Assembly: GCA_013815385.1 (NCBI GenBank)
Contig: JACDGL010000005.1
Coordinates: 1 to 64,000, forward strand
Reading direction: 5' to 3'
DNA: 64,000 nucleotides
Source of the DNA: Taibaiella sp.
Lineage (GTDB): Bacteria; Bacteroidota; Bacteroidia; Chitinophagales; Chitinophagaceae
Below, piece after piece: positions 13,142 through 21,074 of the stretch. The first letter of the stretch is position 1, and each line of letters opens with the position of its first letter. The notes beneath the pieces were generated by a model that was not told where the DNA came from, searched no databases, and saw only the letters and a list, made by a program, of their open reading frames with translations. Position numbers and translations under genes: made by a program.

Positions 13142-14392
13142 TTACTTAATTAACACGGTTCTGCCCAGTAAGTTACCTGCTTTGGTTATCTCTATTAAAT
13201 ATTGCCCATAAGCAAGCGGCGTGATATCTAATATATTATTTGCAGGCAAGCCGCCCTCCATTAACTTTTGGCCCATTATGTTGTAGATAGTAAATGTGCA
13301 GTTTTTAGGAATAGAATTACCTGTAAAGCTAATATGCACTTTATTAATAGCAGGATTTGGATAACAGGAAATAGTGTTCACGTCCGCACTTACCCAGGCT
13401 ACTGAAGCAGGCAGAGAAAATTCCCACCAATCCTGGTAATACATACCCCCTGTGGAGGTATTGATCCCTGTACCCAGATACGTTTTGCCATTACTAAGTG
13501 TGCCTGATATTAAATAAGACCTGGCAGGCATAGGAGAAGGAGGCAAGGCGGTCCATACATCAGTAACCGGATCATAGACGAAAAAATCATGAAAGTCGGT
13601 ATCACCCAGTAATTCGCCCATACCACAGTATGCCTTATTATTTATCACAAAACTAATACCGCCCAGCCTTCCCAGCACAGGGAAATCTGCTACCCTACTC
13701 CAGTTATCTGCTGCAGGGTCATATGAATAGGTAAAGCGGGGGAATTTAATATCAAAGATTCCGGCATGTACAATACTATCTATCTCCCCTCCCGATATAT
13801 AGCCTTTGCTGCCAATGCTAAAAGAAAACGGTAACAGCAGATAGCTTGAGTCGTATGGCAGATTCCTTTTCTTTGTCCATACATCGGTAGCAGGATCGTA
13901 TTCCCAAAAATCGTTTTTAGGAACTCGGTGAGGATCGATGGATTGGGTATCCAACCCACCGCCTACATAAGCTTTATTGCCAATAACAAAGCAACTGGCA
14001 TAAGACCTGATGCCGCCCGGAAAATCTGCTTTTTGAGCCCATGTACGGCTGGTGGGATCATACTGCCAAAGGTCCTTTTTAAAGTGAGTACTGTCGTTGC
14101 CCAGCGCTATGTAGCCTTTACCACCTATAGCAAACGCAATCCCGTTTTCCCGCGCATCTACTATACCAGGCGTATTGCCTATCCGCAACCAGGTATCAGT
14201 GGGTGCGTAGTACCTAAAGAACGACCTATCGCCCGCTCCGCCAACATATATAGTATCATTTATAGTAAATGAAAAAGCGCCAGCGGTAAGGCCATCTATA
14301 AAATCTCCTTTTTTAACCCAGTTTTGAGCAATACAATAATGGCTACATACAAGACAACCAAGCACCAATAGATAAGAGCAGACCTTTTTCAT
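13142..14392 (-). CDS. T9SS-exported kelch-repeat protein
   Basis: Secreted 416-aa protein. The signal peptide (about 1-22) ends in CIAQ. Six or so kelch repeats of about 50 residues follow, each with the GKGYI/NKAYVGGG turn and a later YDPATDVWTKK strand, predicting a beta-propeller like that of galactose oxidase. The last 70 residues are a T9SS sorting domain (ISCYPNPAINKVHISF ... YLIEITKAG). No catalytic residues of galactose oxidase (Cys-Tyr cofactor) are evident. Probably a binding protein on the surface. Confidence 0.9.
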   Translation of the reverse strand: MKKVCSYLLVLGCLVCSHYCIAQNWVKKGDFIDGLTAGAFSFTINDTIYVGGAGDRSFFRYYAPTDTWLRIGNTPGIVDARENGIAFAIGGKGYIALGNDSTHFKKDLWQYDPTSRTWAQKADFPGGIRSYASCFVIGNKAYVGGGLDTQSIDPHRVPKNDFWEYDPATDVWTKKRNLPYDSSYLLLPFSFSIGSKGYISGGEIDSIVHAGIFDIKFPRFTYSYDPAADNWSRVADFPVLGRLGGISFVINNKAYCGMGELLGDTDFHDFFVYDPVTDVWTALPPSPMPARSYLISGTLSNGKTYLGTGINTSTGGMYYQDWWEFSLPASVAWVSADVNTISCYPNPAINKVHISFTGNSIPKNCTFTIYNIMGQKLMEGGLPANNILDITPLAYGQYLIEITKAGNLLGRTVLIK

Positions 14393-14568
14393 TTTACTAA
14401 CATTTCCCTATTGACGTATCTATTATAACTGTCGTTAGTATAAAAACAAATATCCCCCTAAAAGGGTGGTGTGGCAATTATTACCTAAAGACATGCAGTA
14501 AGGATAATCTGTAATTCCTATTTTCCTAAATATTAAGTGATTATTTCTTTATGTTTATAACTTAGAGC

Positions 14569-15105
14569 ATGAAGAAGACCTTCTTTATATTATTCCTGAT
14601 CGCCCATAACTGTATGGGCCAAACTTACATGTCATTAGTTCCTTGTCTCACCAATAGCCCAGGTACCCTGGGAGAAAAGGCAAATATATCTTTTGAAGTA
14701 GGCAGGCAATGGGATGTATTTAGCCTGGGTGTTGATATTGGACGTACCAGCCTCGGCAAGGTAGATGGCAAAGACACAACCATATACCTAGAGGTACGGC
14801 CAAACCTCAACATTTTTCAGCAGGGAAAGTTTACCAATACCTTTACTCCGGGTATCGGATACATCTTTGGAGCTGAAGAGAATTTCATGACTGAGCTTAC
14901 TAGCGGCATAGAATACGCTTATAACGACAAACTGCACTTTAATATTTACTTCGGACAATATTTTTACAGCGGCAAGGTAAGCGCGAGCAATGTTACCTTT
15001 TTCGGATTATCTGTGATGTATTATTTCTTACCTACAAAAACAGGGGCAATATTTAAAAGAGAACCGGGTGAAGGTAAAGACAAGACAAAAAAAGGGAAAG
15101 GGTAA
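14569..15105 (+). CDS. Putative outer-membrane beta-barrel protein
   Basis: 178-aa protein with a signal peptide (about 1-18, ending NCMGQ) and alternating hydrophobic strands (FSLGVDIGRTSLGKV, FTPGIGYIFG, HFNIYFGQYFY, FFGLSVMYYFL) as in small outer-membrane barrels. The C-terminal 20 residues are a Lys/Gly-rich tail (EGKDKTKKGKG) that would lie outside the barrel. Convergent with the next cargo gene, 12 bp apart. Function unknown. Confidence 0.6.
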   Translation: MKKTFFILFLIAHNCMGQTYMSLVPCLTNSPGTLGEKANISFEVGRQWDVFSLGVDIGRTSLGKVDGKDTTIYLEVRPNLNIFQQGKFTNTFTPGIGYIFGAEENFMTELTSGIEYAYNDKLHFNIYFGQYFYSGKVSASNVTFFGLSVMYYFLPTKTGAIFKREPGEGKDKTKKGKG

Positions 15106-15117
15106 AAGCAGCATCAC

Positions 15118-16836
15118 TTACTTTTTCACTAATGTCTTATATAACCGGCCACCATCAGCGGATGCTAATTGCAATAAATAGGTGCCGGCATGCAGTCGAT
15201 CCAAATAAATTGTTTCTTTATTATTGCTTATCAATCCGGTACAGACTTGCCTGCCAGTAAGATCAAATATCTTGTACAGAGTAATGCCGTGAAGTCCTTC
15301 TATTGTAATGTTATCCTCCATAGGGATGGGAAATATAACCACCTCATTCAATGAAGGAAAGCTTTTTATACTAGTACTGCTATCTACTTCGCAGTTTGGA
15401 CGACCAAACTTTGCTATAAAAAAATCTGTTTCACCGCCGCTGCTATGTAAATTTTCAGAGGCTACTATAATGTTGCTTTGAAACTGACCGCCAGCGTAAT
15501 AGTTACCGTAATTATCCACTCCTAAAGAGGTGGGATAGGCATCTCCACCGGCAAGAGTATCCACTCCTATCACTAATCCGGAATGCGCATTTATCGTGGC
15601 AATAAAAATATGATAGCCACTAGTATTCCTGGTATAACTATCCCAACTGAATCTACCCGGATAATCTCCTATTACCGCTACAGTATCACCAAAAAGAGCC
15701 ACGCTACTTCCTTCACTTGCTGCATCAGTTGATGCATTGGTAGCCCATATATTATCGCCATTACTATCCAGCTTAATCAAAAAGGGCGACGCTACCGATG
15801 AAAGCCCAAAGCTGTTATGGAATGTAGCTCCATTAAATGTATATCCTGGTGCTGTAGCACCTGTAATGTAAATATATCCCTGAGGGTCTACCAGCGGTCG
15901 GTTAGCCACTCCCCCATAGCCAGCTGAATCGTTATTTTGTTTTGTCCATTTGTTTATGCCCGCATTATCAAACGCGCCTAAATAGAGGCAGTAACTAACT
16001 TTGGTGGCTCCAAATTTATACACAGAAGAGCCTGACGGGAAGTGCGTACCCCCAATATAATACAAGTCCCTTTTTGCATCCCAAGTCATATGTATATTCT
16101 GCAACACATTTGGGACAGAATAGGTTATCTGCATGCTATGACCTGTTATAAATTTGCCATTCCTATCATATTTCATCAGATACAGGCCCGGGGAAGTAAC
16201 TATATATATACCCCCCACGTATGCTCCGGGCGGCAACATACATAGTAAGGCCGTATTGCCTGCCTTATCTGCATCCATATCTATAGGTACAGTTGTTACG
16301 ATAGCGCCTGTTGAAACGGTATCAGACTGCGGCATCCTTATCCATTTATAAGCACCAGATGTATCGTACTTTAAGATGAAGAGCGATTTATTAGTCTCTG
16401 TGATCAGCGTATCACTATCTATGTATGCCGGTCCTACACCATGAATTACCTGCATATATCCTGCTATATAAACACCACCGAGGGTATCGGCTTTTATGCT
16501 TTGTGCAGCATTATCTGCGCTTAGGCTGCCTATTACTTTGCTCCACCGATAAGTGCCATCACATTTAAAGCTGGCGATGCTGATATTCTGGTATCCATAT
16601 CCTGTTTTTGCATGCCCATCTATATCCGGTGAATAGCCAAATACGTTGGCAAGGACATATAAATTTCCCCATTTATCGGTAGCTATATCAATTACATTTT
16701 CCGTACTTCCGTATATTCCGGTACTAACAGAGCCACCGCCCCTTTTTCCCCACTGCCAACTTTGCGCCCGGCCAGAATAGAAAGTAGAAAGCATAAATAA
16801 AGTGAAAAATAATGCGGGTAGTAATAATCTTTTCAT
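15118..16836 (-). CDS. T9SS-exported SBBP-like repeat protein
   Basis: Secreted 572-aa protein: signal peptide (about 1-24), then repeated blades of the SBBP/NHL-like kind (GNLYVLANVFG, GGVYIAGYMQV, GYIYITGATAP, GNYYAGGQFQ) each followed by DxxIAKF-type strands. A T9SS sorting domain fills the last 75 residues (VVIFPIPMEDNITIEG ... GTYLLQLAS). The sorting-domain start reads FPIPM where FPNPM is usual. It probably folds as a propeller. Ligand unknown. Confidence 0.85.
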   Translation of the reverse strand: MKRLLLPALFFTLFMLSTFYSGRAQSWQWGKRGGGSVSTGIYGSTENVIDIATDKWGNLYVLANVFGYSPDIDGHAKTGYGYQNISIASFKCDGTYRWSKVIGSLSADNAAQSIKADTLGGVYIAGYMQVIHGVGPAYIDSDTLITETNKSLFILKYDTSGAYKWIRMPQSDTVSTGAIVTTVPIDMDADKAGNTALLCMLPPGAYVGGIYIVTSPGLYLMKYDRNGKFITGHSMQITYSVPNVLQNIHMTWDAKRDLYYIGGTHFPSGSSVYKFGATKVSYCLYLGAFDNAGINKWTKQNNDSAGYGGVANRPLVDPQGYIYITGATAPGYTFNGATFHNSFGLSSVASPFLIKLDSNGDNIWATNASTDAASEGSSVALFGDTVAVIGDYPGRFSWDSYTRNTSGYHIFIATINAHSGLVIGVDTLAGGDAYPTSLGVDNYGNYYAGGQFQSNIIVASENLHSSGGETDFFIAKFGRPNCEVDSSTSIKSFPSLNEVVIFPIPMEDNITIEGLHGITLYKIFDLTGRQVCTGLISNNKETIYLDRLHAGTYLLQLASADGGRLYKTLVKK

Positions 16837-17024
16837 ATAGGGTTAATAATTACTCCCTTAAATCTAATATATAGGATCAATATTTCAATGGTTGTAATCT
16901 TTTGTTGCGATACAATAATTATAGAAATAAGAGATGCCCTTCAAATTTTGAAGCTAGTAGTAACTCTTAATTAATAAATAGGAATAAAAGATAGATTTCT
17001 ATGAGCGATGCGTTAATAGATATT

Positions 17025-19829
17025 CTATTTTTTTACCAACATTTTAGTAACGACACTGCTGTTTTCCTCTTTTACTGAAATGTAATAGATGCCTGATGGA
17101 ATATTGGCAGTATTAATCTGCATAAGCCGTTCATAAGTTTGTTGTGCGATTACCACCTGGCCAAGTGTATTATGTACTAAGATATTACGAAGGCCGGCAG
17201 TATTAAAACTAATAGCGAGTAATTCGTCGACAGGGTTTGGATAAATAGTAAAACTATTTTGTACGCCTTGTAGGTTTGCAACTGTAAGTGGAGGCTGATT
17301 AGTTAGCCTGCCTACAAAGGCATCGTAGTTATAATACCCCGGTGTGAGTAAAGATGTAACGGTTATCTTACCGAACTTAGCAGTGTTATTAAAAGACCCG
17401 GCAATTGCAATAGTTGTGTCTGTGTTATCTACTGCAATAGCATTCCCGAAGTCCGCGTGTCCGCTAGCGTTAGTAACCCATATAGCGTTGCCGGAAGTAT
17501 CAAATTTTGCAATAAAAATATCTGTATAATCAGCAGCAGGCAAAGCGGTACCGCCTATTGTCAAATTACCACCATAATTGCCTATAATGTACGGATCGCC
17601 AGATACATCCGATGCAATCCCGGTTGTAGCATCATTAGTGCTGTTCCCGAAACGCTTCTGCCACAGGCGTGTACCGGTACCCGAATATTTTTCAATAAAT
17701 GCATCCTGCAGGGCTACTACCCCTGTGCCCGTGCTATAAATAGCATCCAGATAATTACCGGCTACATATGCATTGCCTGCATTATCAGTAGCAATGCCAT
17801 TACCACAGGAATAATTAGTGAGCGTTGACGTTCCCACGGCTGTGCCTGCATTATCAAGCCGGAACCACAATAAATTGCCTGCGGGATCGTACTTGCTTAC
17901 AAATACCCTATCATTGCCCGATGGCGTTTGCATTACCTGGTGCGCGCCATACCAGGCCGTAGTATCTGTAAGCAGGAATGGTGCCTGCGCAGCAATAGTC
18001 TGTGCCATTTTTATATTACCTGCCGGGTTGGGGTGTACGTTATCATAATTATAGATGGCTTTCATGTAGGTGGTAGCCGTATCCACTAACGCGCTATAAA
18101 AATCAACTACAGTCAGCGAATAAGTTGCAGCTACTGCCCTGATACGCCTGATGTATGGATCAACTCTTGTGCCTCCCAACGGGAGCAAAGTAGCCAGTAC
18201 AGGAATGATACCATGATTTCTGAAACAAGTGACAAGATTAACGAGGTTAGTCTGGTATTGGTTAGTATCTACTCCCGCATTGGCATCATTGGTGCCAATC
18301 TTCATACACACATATTTAGGATGCAGGCTTACTATTTCTGTAGTATCATATAACACGTTAATTGACTGATCTCCCGCACCAGCATTGGTAGCATATAGAT
18401 AAGGACTAGTATTGTATAAAACATCCTGGTAGCGATGCCCCTTACCGCCCGAATAATAGCCTGTAGTTATACTATTACCCACAAAGACTGTTAGCGGATC
18501 ATAATTTTCAGTACTGCTTAATTTGAAATTATAAACATTTTCAGTGCCTCCTAAAAAATACATACCATAGTACCCATTGTTAGGCATTATAAAATTTGTA
18601 GTGGGCGGTCCTACTGTGTATCTGTAACCTTTAGATATCCTGTAGTGCTTTGTATAATTAATAATGGTTGCAGAAAATGTATCGTAGCTTCTCTGAATTG
18701 CTACATTAATAGAATCGCCGATAGAAACAGCGTAGCCAATACTGGAATCAATGGCGCCAGAATAATTAAACAGAATTATCCTGTTACTATCTGTAATTGA
18801 CAACGGAAAATTTGCTACAAAGTAAACGTTACAAAACCTTGCAAGCCCTACACCTTTGCCACCGGTAATTACTTTCACATTGGACTCTACCTTGAAATTT
18901 TCCATGTCAGTAAAATAGTTGTAATAGATAAAATTGTAAAAGGAATTGTTCCCTCCCGTAGCCTGCATAGCTGTGCCTGTAAAATTAAGTGTGACATTAG
19001 GTATGTAGGAGTAAAAATTAGCCGGGAGAGAGGGATTATTAAATTGCTGATCTATAATTGTACCCAATTGTTTGGTACCATACGCAGTATTGCCACTTAT
19101 TTTGCCGGTAGCAAAAATATTACCTGCAGCATCAGTAGCAAGGGCAGTGGTAAGGCAATTGTCAGTTGATTTGCCCGCATTGGCCCATAACAGTGTCCCA
19201 CTGTTCGTGTACTTAGCAAGAAATGTATTGGTGTTACCACCTCTTAAAATAGTGCCGGAGAAATCTGCATATTGCTGAAAATAGCCGCCTATAATTGGAT
19301 TCCCTCCGGGATCAAGTGTAAGTGCAAGGGCTTTTACCATACCCACAGAACGGATACTTTGCGACCATTGGTAGGTACCATCTGGCGCATAGCGGGCAAG
19401 GAACCCGTTACTACCATTTCGGCTATCATTAGTTAAAGAATCAGCAGATGAAAAATGAATTGCCTGGCTATTCATATTGCCTGTTACATAGATATTATCA
19501 TTTGCATCTATGACCACACCTTTTGCTTCATCACTACCCTGCCCCTGTATCGTCTTTACCCAGAGAAGATTCCCTGCTGAATCGTATTTTGCTACAAAAG
19601 CACTACCGGCCAATGAGCCCGGTAAAACAACAGTCCCAAACATACTATTGGCAGAGTATACCCCGGCAGCAATAATATTATTATGATGATCATAGGCAAC
19701 AGTGGTACCGGCATTATTAACATTATTATTCTCTCCTGCTTTTTGTACCCATTTGTATGTTTGTGCTTGCAAAGAGAACGCACATAATAAGAAAAACATT
19801 AACAGGTAACCAAGTCTCTTTATATTCAT
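17025..19829 (-). CDS. T9SS-exported propeller with inserted SGNH hydrolase module
   Basis: 934-aa secreted protein. In order: signal peptide (1-22); SBBP-like repeats (about 25-255) with FVAKYDSAGNLLWVK-type strands; a beta-rich, jelly-roll-like domain (about 258-440); an SGNH hydrolase domain (about 445-630) with block I VFVGNSITTG, block II Gly in GAGDQS, block III GTND and block V DNVHPN; more SBBP-like repeats (about 640-850); T9SS sorting domain (SFTIYPNPVDELLAI ... KMLVKK). The hydrolase module interrupts a repeat between GNTAYGTKQLG and the matching GNDRVFVSKYD strand. All SGNH catalytic elements (Ser, Gly, Asn, Asp-His) appear present, so esterase activity is likely. Confidence 0.88.
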   Translation of the reverse strand: MNIKRLGYLLMFFLLCAFSLQAQTYKWVQKAGENNNVNNAGTTVAYDHHNNIIAAGVYSANSMFGTVVLPGSLAGSAFVAKYDSAGNLLWVKTIQGQGSDEAKGVVIDANDNIYVTGNMNSQAIHFSSADSLTNDSRNGSNGFLARYAPDGTYQWSQSIRSVGMVKALALTLDPGGNPIIGGYFQQYADFSGTILRGGNTNTFLAKYTNSGTLLWANAGKSTDNCLTTALATDAAGNIFATGKISGNTAYGTKQLGTIIDQQFNNPSLPANFYSYIPNVTLNFTGTAMQATGGNNSFYNFIYYNYFTDMENFKVESNVKVITGGKGVGLARFCNVYFVANFPLSITDSNRIILFNYSGAIDSSIGYAVSIGDSINVAIQRSYDTFSATIINYTKHYRISKGYRYTVGPPTTNFIMPNNGYYGMYFLGGTENVYNFKLSSTENYDPLTVFVGNSITTGYYSGGKGHRYQDVLYNTSPYLYATNAGAGDQSINVLYDTTEIVSLHPKYVCMKIGTNDANAGVDTNQYQTNLVNLVTCFRNHGIIPVLATLLPLGGTRVDPYIRRIRAVAATYSLTVVDFYSALVDTATTYMKAIYNYDNVHPNPAGNIKMAQTIAAQAPFLLTDTTAWYGAHQVMQTPSGNDRVFVSKYDPAGNLLWFRLDNAGTAVGTSTLTNYSCGNGIATDNAGNAYVAGNYLDAIYSTGTGVVALQDAFIEKYSGTGTRLWQKRFGNSTNDATTGIASDVSGDPYIIGNYGGNLTIGGTALPAADYTDIFIAKFDTSGNAIWVTNASGHADFGNAIAVDNTDTTIAIAGSFNNTAKFGKITVTSLLTPGYYNYDAFVGRLTNQPPLTVANLQGVQNSFTIYPNPVDELLAISFNTAGLRNILVHNTLGQVVIAQQTYERLMQINTANIPSGIYYISVKEENSSVVTKMLVKK

Positions 19830-19943
19830 AAACCAGCAGATGAATCAGGAATATCGTCAAGATAAGAAAAAATGAATATTATTCCTTGAAATAAGACGTG
19901 TATAAAGAACAGGTTTTTATACTTTTATTCAAATTCAAACCTT

Positions 19944-21074
19944 ATGAAGGTCGTTGCTGCTACAATACTTTTATTGTCCCTACCTATTTATAATTATGCA
20001 CAGGAGGCGCAACCAAAGCATGACCATATACCACTACAAAAAATAACAGATACATCAAGGTCGGTAAAACCCAAAGGTCTTGCCTATGCAGATGAGGTAC
20101 ATTTTAAAAATATGCGGCAACTGACAACAGGGGGAGATAATGCAGAAGCATACTTCGGGTTTGACAACGAGCATATAACCTTTCAGCGCACAAACCCTAA
20201 AGAGCATTTGTTGTGCGACCAGATCTTTTATGGCGCTATACCAAAAAAAAGCGCAGCGCCATTTACCTACAAAATGGTAAGCACCGGCAAAGGCCGCACT
20301 ACCTGTGCTTATCTGATGCCCGATAAAAAACATTTCCTTTACGCATCTACCTACAAAGGATCAGAATACTGCCCACCAATGCCTGACCGCGCGGCTATAA
20401 AAAAATATGTGTGGCCTATCTATGACAGCTATGATATTTATATAGCGACACTGGATGGCAAGATCGTGAAGGAATTAACCAATACTCCCGGCTATGATGC
20501 AGAGGCAACTATATCACCCAAAAAAGACAAAATAGTATTTACCAGCATGCGCAATGGCGACCTGGATATATACACAATGAACCTGGACGGCACCAATGTG
20601 AAACAGATCACCAATACGCTGGGCTATGATGGGGGCGCCTGTTTCTCGCCCGATGGTAAAAAAATAGTATGGCGCGCATCAAGGCCTACAACTCCTGAAG
20701 ACATAAAGGAATATAAAGCGCTGATGGCACAGGGACTGGTAATGCCCATAAAAATGGAGGTTTTTATTGCTAATGCGGATGGGAGTGATGTACACCAGGT
20801 CACTAACCTGGGTAAAGCTAATTGGGCACCCGCCTTTACGCCCGATGGGAAACGCATAGTATTTGCAAGTGACTATGAATATGAAAGGGGATTTCCTTTT
20901 AACCTATACCTTATAAATACAGATGGTACCGGGCTCCAGCGCATTAGCCACGATGGCAGCTTCGACGCGTTTCCTATGTTCTCACCAGATGGTAAGAAAT
21001 TTATCTTCAGCAGCAACCGAAACAATGGTGGCGGACATGATACGAATGTGTTTGTGTGTGACTGGGTGGAGTAG
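19944..21074 (+). CDS. TolB-like (PD40) beta-propeller protein
   Basis: 376-aa protein with a signal peptide ending NYAQE and several PD40/WD40-like repeats: AEATISPKKDKIVFTS, GACFSPDGKKIVWRA, APAFTPDGKRIVFASD and AFPMFSPDGKKFIFSSN. These fold as a propeller like the TolB C-terminal domain. In Bacteroidota such stand-alone proteins are periplasmic and of unknown role; it is not TolB itself, since no tol-pal genes are nearby. The N-terminal part (30-160) has no recognised domain. Followed by crcB after 42 bp on the same strand. Confidence 0.85.
   Translation: MKVVAATILLLSLPIYNYAQEAQPKHDHIPLQKITDTSRSVKPKGLAYADEVHFKNMRQLTTGGDNAEAYFGFDNEHITFQRTNPKEHLLCDQIFYGAIPKKSAAPFTYKMVSTGKGRTTCAYLMPDKKHFLYASTYKGSEYCPPMPDRAAIKKYVWPIYDSYDIYIATLDGKIVKELTNTPGYDAEATISPKKDKIVFTSMRNGDLDIYTMNLDGTNVKQITNTLGYDGGACFSPDGKKIVWRASRPTTPEDIKEYKALMAQGLVMPIKMEVFIANADGSDVHQVTNLGKANWAPAFTPDGKRIVFASDYEYERGFPFNLYLINTDGTGLQRISHDGSFDAFPMFSPDGKKFIFSSNRNNGGGHDTNVFVCDWVE

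Follow-up and report, generated by a model that had tools for sequence, protein, structure and literature searches.

An SGNH hydrolase cassette inserted within one blade of a predicted T9SS-exported SBBP propeller in Taibaiella sp.

A 934-aa protein encoded in a Taibaiella sp. genome (assembly GCA_013815385.1) carries an SGNH hydrolase domain in the midst of a propeller built of SBBP repeats. This raises the question of how an enzyme can be accommodated inside a single repeat, whether the propeller still closes around it, and where the enzyme came from. The window, that is, the whole stretch of DNA analysed, comprises the first 64,000 nucleotides of contig JACDGL010000005.1. We show, by comparison of sequences, that a complete SGNH domain, its predicted catalytic residues included, interrupts one loop of a seven-unit propeller having the features of a T9SS cargo. 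Our full reading, to which we assign a probability of about 0.7, is that a T9SS-exported propeller carries a ready-made esterase cassette in blade 4 and would act as an extracellular deacylase. The gene and its parts are located as follows.

17025..19829, minus strand: whole gene, a 934-aa T9SS cargo with a seven-unit SBBP propeller and an inserted beta-sandwich/SGNH cassette
19764..19829, minus strand: putative signal peptide, about residues 1-22 (basic start, hydrophobic stretch and SLQAQ, by eye; helix 3-18 in the model)
19062..19760, minus strand: propeller part 1 (units 1-3 and the start of unit 4), residues 24-256, from blade HMM and model
19062..19169, minus strand: unit (blade) 4, first part, residues 221-256; HMM positions 5-39; strands 224-232, 238-244 and 248-250
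17925..19061, minus strand: insert, residues 257 to about 635, missing in PAR545, L307, L310 and every further SBBP protein compared
18498..19061, minus strand: inserted beta-sandwich (jelly-roll-like), residues 257-444, all-beta in the cassette model (pLDDT 30-88)
17979..18497, minus strand: SGNH/GDSL hydrolase domain, residues 445-617 (PF13472, 1.5e-17; Foldseek to 4rsh, TM 0.85 of target)
18471..18473, minus strand: Ser453, predicted nucleophile (GNSIT, block I)
18372..18374, minus strand: Gly486, predicted oxyanion-hole Gly (block II), assigned by sequence position
18288..18290, minus strand: Asn514, predicted oxyanion-hole Asn (GTND, block III)
18033..18044, minus strand: Asp596 and His599 (DNVHPN, block V), invariant in A6 and A7
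17925..17978, minus strand: return linker, about residues 618-635, mostly of low confidence in both models
17865..17924, minus strand: unit (blade) 4, second part, residues 636-655; HMM positions 37-60; SGNDRVFVSKYD matches SGDDVFIGKFD of L307
17292..17924, minus strand: propeller part 2 (rest of unit 4 and units 5-7), residues 636-846, from blade HMM and model
17034..17246, minus strand: T9SS type A sorting domain, residues 862-932 (PF18962, 8.9e-12; TIGR04183, 2.3e-11)
15118..16836, minus strand: neighbouring SBBP propeller T9SS cargo of 572 aa, without SGNH domain

Pfam recognizes the SBBP repeats (PF06739; 30.2 bits, cut-off 20.5) and Lipase_GDSL_2 (PF13472) at residues 449-605 (E 1.5e-17; 65.1 bits, curated cut-off 32.9), while no Pfam family scored above cut-off on the inserted beta-sandwich. 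Against the LipL53-family SBBP lipoprotein model (NF047494) the protein reached 119.4 bits, below the equivalog cut-off of 400. Its assignment as a T9SS type A cargo is based on the signal peptide, which was read from the sequence and not with a predictor, on the tail matching TIGR04183 and PF18962, and on the presence of a T9SS in the genome, where SprA was found with E 2.9e-156 and the type A sorting domain has 112 matches.

The propeller units were delimited with a blade HMM seeded with thirteen units from this protein and a paralogue, leaving out the split unit 4. Seven SBBP units were found, one of them split. The matches cover residues 36-90, 92-155, 158-215 and 221-255 in part 1 (AlphaFold2 pLDDT mostly 75-98) and 629-655, 671-723, 725-784 and 789-843 in part 2 (mostly 85-98). 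The two matches of unit 4 are separated by 373 residues and, since residues 221-255 correspond to model positions 5-39 and residues 629-655 to positions 37-60, the flanks of the insert are two complementary parts of one unit. Comparison with uninterrupted relatives gives an insert of about 379 residues, each edge being uncertain by about 2 residues; the preliminary description had located it correctly, at 17950-19055, though slightly short of the 17925-19061 found here. A scan of the genome collection and of whole genomes of the same family yielded 86 distinct SBBP proteins, in which 619 full units were counted; 60 of the proteins have exactly seven units, and the split unit is unique to the 934-aa protein. 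Other large inter-unit gaps (L047, L049, L053, L079) do not part complementary halves, most of them resembling degenerate units or spacers.

Propeller and cassette could not be aligned together by MAFFT, and two models were therefore built. For the full protein, AlphaFold2 was given an alignment of 35 uninterrupted propeller relatives, which biases the model toward closure; the insert, without alignment in this model, has pLDDT mostly below 50 and was modelled separately. Residues 24-250 and 640-843 form one propeller in the model, with pLDDT about 85-98. Unit 4 has strands 224-232, 238-244 and 248-250 before the insert and 631-633, 640-647 and 653-659 after it, so that the chain leaves and re-enters between the short strands 248-250 and 631-633 of the blade-4 hairpin. 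Because short hairpins occupy the equivalent place in other blades (62-64/67-69, 123-125/131-133, 756-758/761-763), the insert can be placed at the tip of this hairpin. A Foldseek alignment of the full model to CylK, whose propeller is single and seven-bladed, spans 848 columns with the gap counted (E 1.1e-17, TM 0.37 of query), both halves being superposed on that one propeller; by simple arithmetic, one half alone could reach a TM of only about 0.24. These models support closure of the propeller as a single ring around the insert, whose exit and return at nearly the same point would allow it to close like the uninterrupted paralogue. It had been proposed from the letters that the insertion falls between two strands of the same blade and that both halves can still close, and a structure prediction had been suggested as the check; the HMM halves and the AlphaFold2 model agree with both proposals. 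In CylK the loops between internal strands lie on the top face and are described as unusually long (PMC8916777); judged by strand order, the insertion loop would join blade strands two and three and, by analogy with CylK, would lie on the top face. The placement of the enzyme relative to the propeller is a low-confidence prediction.

Relatives of the propeller lacking the insert, for which a search had also been suggested, were found both within this genome and in sister genomes. The paralogue PAR545 (L002, G000:C30:283730-285331, 545 aa) matches residues 8-259 and 642-924 only, and its uninterrupted unit 4 reads WGSTVLGTPLTNIKNGWVAKLD where the 934-aa protein reads YGTKQLG, then the insert, then SGNDRVFVSKYD. 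L307, from another genome, is 40% identical over residues 2-253, with an uninterrupted unit 4 reading FGSTNYPHVSGDDVFIGKFD, and close relatives with an uninterrupted unit 4 are present in two other genomes. The flanks were joined artificially solely for this comparison of the empty site. In a tree of 56 propellers the 934-aa protein, with the insert omitted, clusters with L307, PAR545 and L310 with support of 100/99; as it nests among these three proteins, all without the insert, the insertion is, on phylogenetic grounds, the derived state. No orthologue carrying the insert was found among 100 relatives at E 1e-30, nor in 296 family genomes at 1e-12, where scoring covered the two best candidates of each genome, and a genome-wide pattern scan with the whole 934-aa protein returned no relative. 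The edges of the insert share no direct repeat (no common word of 7 or more), and synonymous codon usage, which is flank-like, gives no sign of foreign composition in the insert; the beta-sandwich part is AT-richer (0.349 GC). These repeat and composition tests revealed no trace of an insertion mechanism.

Two other explanations of the arrangement itself have to be weighed against an insertion into one closed propeller. The 379-residue insert physically parts the halves, and the protein might consist of two separate small propellers, or sheets, linked by the beta-sandwich and the SGNH domain. However, the halves amount to about 3.6 and 3.4 units where most relatives have seven, the flanks complete one unit, and the AlphaFold2 model is a single propeller with both halves on CylK; the complementary HMM halves, the single-propeller model and the CylK alignment rule this arrangement out, and we consider it extremely improbable. 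Equally slight is the probability that an assembly or sequencing artefact joined an SGNH gene into a propeller gene, as might be suspected of an arrangement found in no second genome. The gene is a single stop-free open frame within a 226-kb contig, both junctions are in frame at a loop, which a chance join would rarely achieve at both ends, and the insert, flank-like in its synonymous codon usage, occurs once in the genome.

The cassette was modelled alone with 38 relatives. The model shows an all-beta domain followed by the SGNH domain, the C-terminal part of which has pLDDT 94-98. The first domain is thus of the jelly-roll-like kind that had been read from the letters, an all-beta sandwich modelled with moderate confidence (pLDDT 30-88), and the SGNH blocks listed at that time (GNS, Gly, GTND, DNVHPN) were right: the predicted catalytic set is complete, with Ser453, Gly486 (by position only), Asn514, Asp596 and His599. 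Two-domain PDB matches found by Foldseek include the PVA esterase 9kr1, the carbohydrate esterase 7tog and the CE2 enzyme 2waa. As the rmsd is 12-15, it is the domain order that the cassette has in common with them, their relative domain placement not being established; for 2waa the same order goes with a Foldseek TM of 0.40, rmsd 12.2 and 11% identity, the jelly roll being moderately modelled. Among viral models, the whole cassette is matched best by the crAss001 tail fibre A0A385DV68 (396 columns, E 5.1e-20). A jelly roll followed by an SGNH domain is the defining layout of CE2 carbohydrate esterases (PMC2661963, PMC9487903), and acetyl esterase activity has been demonstrated for SGNH tail fibres (PMC13123978). 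From the CE2 domain order, the two-domain structural matches and the tail-fibre activity we infer a deacylase of carbohydrates or polymers, and the protein is likely to be an exported carbohydrate O-deacylase presented on the propeller face. A ready-made cassette, with an N-terminal beta-sandwich and a C-terminal SGNH domain, would have been inserted at the blade-4 hairpin tip; the enzyme would remove acyl (acetyl) groups from an extracellular carbohydrate or similar polymer, and the beta-sandwich and the propeller might help to bind the substrate or to position the active site.

Lipases, thioesterases and lysophospholipases are likewise found among SGNH enzymes. The enzyme could accordingly be a lipid or phospholipid hydrolase of the lipase or lysophospholipase type instead of a carbohydrate deacylase, and TesA-type enzymes are indeed among the Foldseek matches, together with a weak PRK10528 match far below the cut-off. 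We hold this to be unlikely, given that most of the two-domain PDB matches are esterases of carbohydrates or polymers and that SGNH tail fibres act on surface polysaccharides. Less probable still is a non-catalytic binding module mounted on the propeller: CtCE2 does bind cellulose at its active site (PMC2661963), but Ser453, Gly486, Asn514, Asp596 and His599 are all present in the insert.

Comparison of the insert with other proteins indicates that it is a pre-existing two-domain cassette, also found in tail-fibre-like and in stand-alone secreted proteins. By phmmer it matches L163 (E 7.6e-29), L193 (6.7e-17) and L024 (1.7e-14), all of them long proteins, two being clearly fibre-like by PHROGs tail families, and the beta-sandwich precedes the SGNH domain in tail-fibre-like proteins too. 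The gene of L163 adjoins those of a virion structural protein and a holin, that of L024 adjoins endolysin-like genes, and L086, which carries the cassette, adjoins portal, head protease and tape-measure genes; the viral sample was assembled via viral searches, and counts of sources in it carry little meaning. Two fibre-like proteins from genomes of the same family, L282 (G218) and L283 (G022), have a signal peptide together with the cassette and could be proteins that the bacteria export and that follow the architecture of phage fibres. The cassette also stands in propeller-free protein in G1246 and G1279. There, L336 (G1246) and L328/L337 (G1279) represent a stand-alone protein in which the cassette, sharing about 31% identity with the insert, precedes a weak fn3-like domain and a C-terminal tail. 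Separately, a 961-aa tail-fibre-like cassette gene (L249, G408:C7:174000-193000) adjoins two endolysin-like genes, which suggests a prophage. A tree of 11 cassettes has long branches and does not settle the donor. That the insert is a captured phage tail-fibre esterase, a virion surface-polysaccharide deacetylase that now serves the bacterium as a secreted or surface enzyme, the propeller top face offering a second surface for substrate binding, is a tentative idea to which we give a rather low probability.

Domain insertion into propellers is already known. The integrin alpha I (vWFA) domain (PMC12422189) is likewise a foreign domain in a seven-bladed propeller that closes and has insert-free relatives; it is a binding domain between blades 2 and 3, whereas here an enzyme lies within blade 4, and the likeness is one of arrangement. 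In the Vibrio cholerae sialidase, a type 2 Asp-box propeller (PMC2716378), blades of a single propeller are also interrupted by an inserted domain, but in that protein the propeller itself is catalytic, and the inserted domain is lectin-like. The C-terminal propeller of CylK (PMC8916777; 7fh7) is the closest solved relative of the propeller by sequence (E 2e-19) and by fold; CylK, which carries out Friedel-Crafts alkylation, has a second domain that is N-terminal and not inserted, and it has no SGNH domain. CE2 and other two-domain SGNH esterases (2waa, 7tog, 9kr1) share the N-terminal jelly-roll-like domain followed by SGNH, but stand outside any propeller and superpose weakly overall on the cassette (rmsd 12-15). 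SGNH phage tail fibres (crAss001 A0A385DV68, G7C gp63.1) likewise bear the cassette mid-way in a long structural protein, which is a virion-borne fibre and not a T9SS-exported propeller. No described case of SGNH combined with a propeller was found in open-access full text, most subscription papers being outside this scope, and an SGNH esterase within a blade appears to be undescribed; the preliminary description, which knew of no example, is borne out for this combination and not for propeller insertion in general.

The uninterrupted and the enzyme-bearing propeller constitute a natural before-and-after pair in one genome, and offer a convenient test of how a repeat protein tolerates a large in-frame insertion inside a repeat. 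The SBBP blade hairpin is marked out as a possible mounting site for T9SS-exported enzymes of about 380 residues, and the cassette links phage tail fibres with bacterial exported proteins. The gene also lies in a cluster of four propeller genes of three repeat types at 13142-21074 of the window: kelch (13142-14392), SBBP (15118-16836), SBBP with the SGNH insert (17025-19829) and PD40/WD40-like (19944-21074), the first three with T9SS tails.
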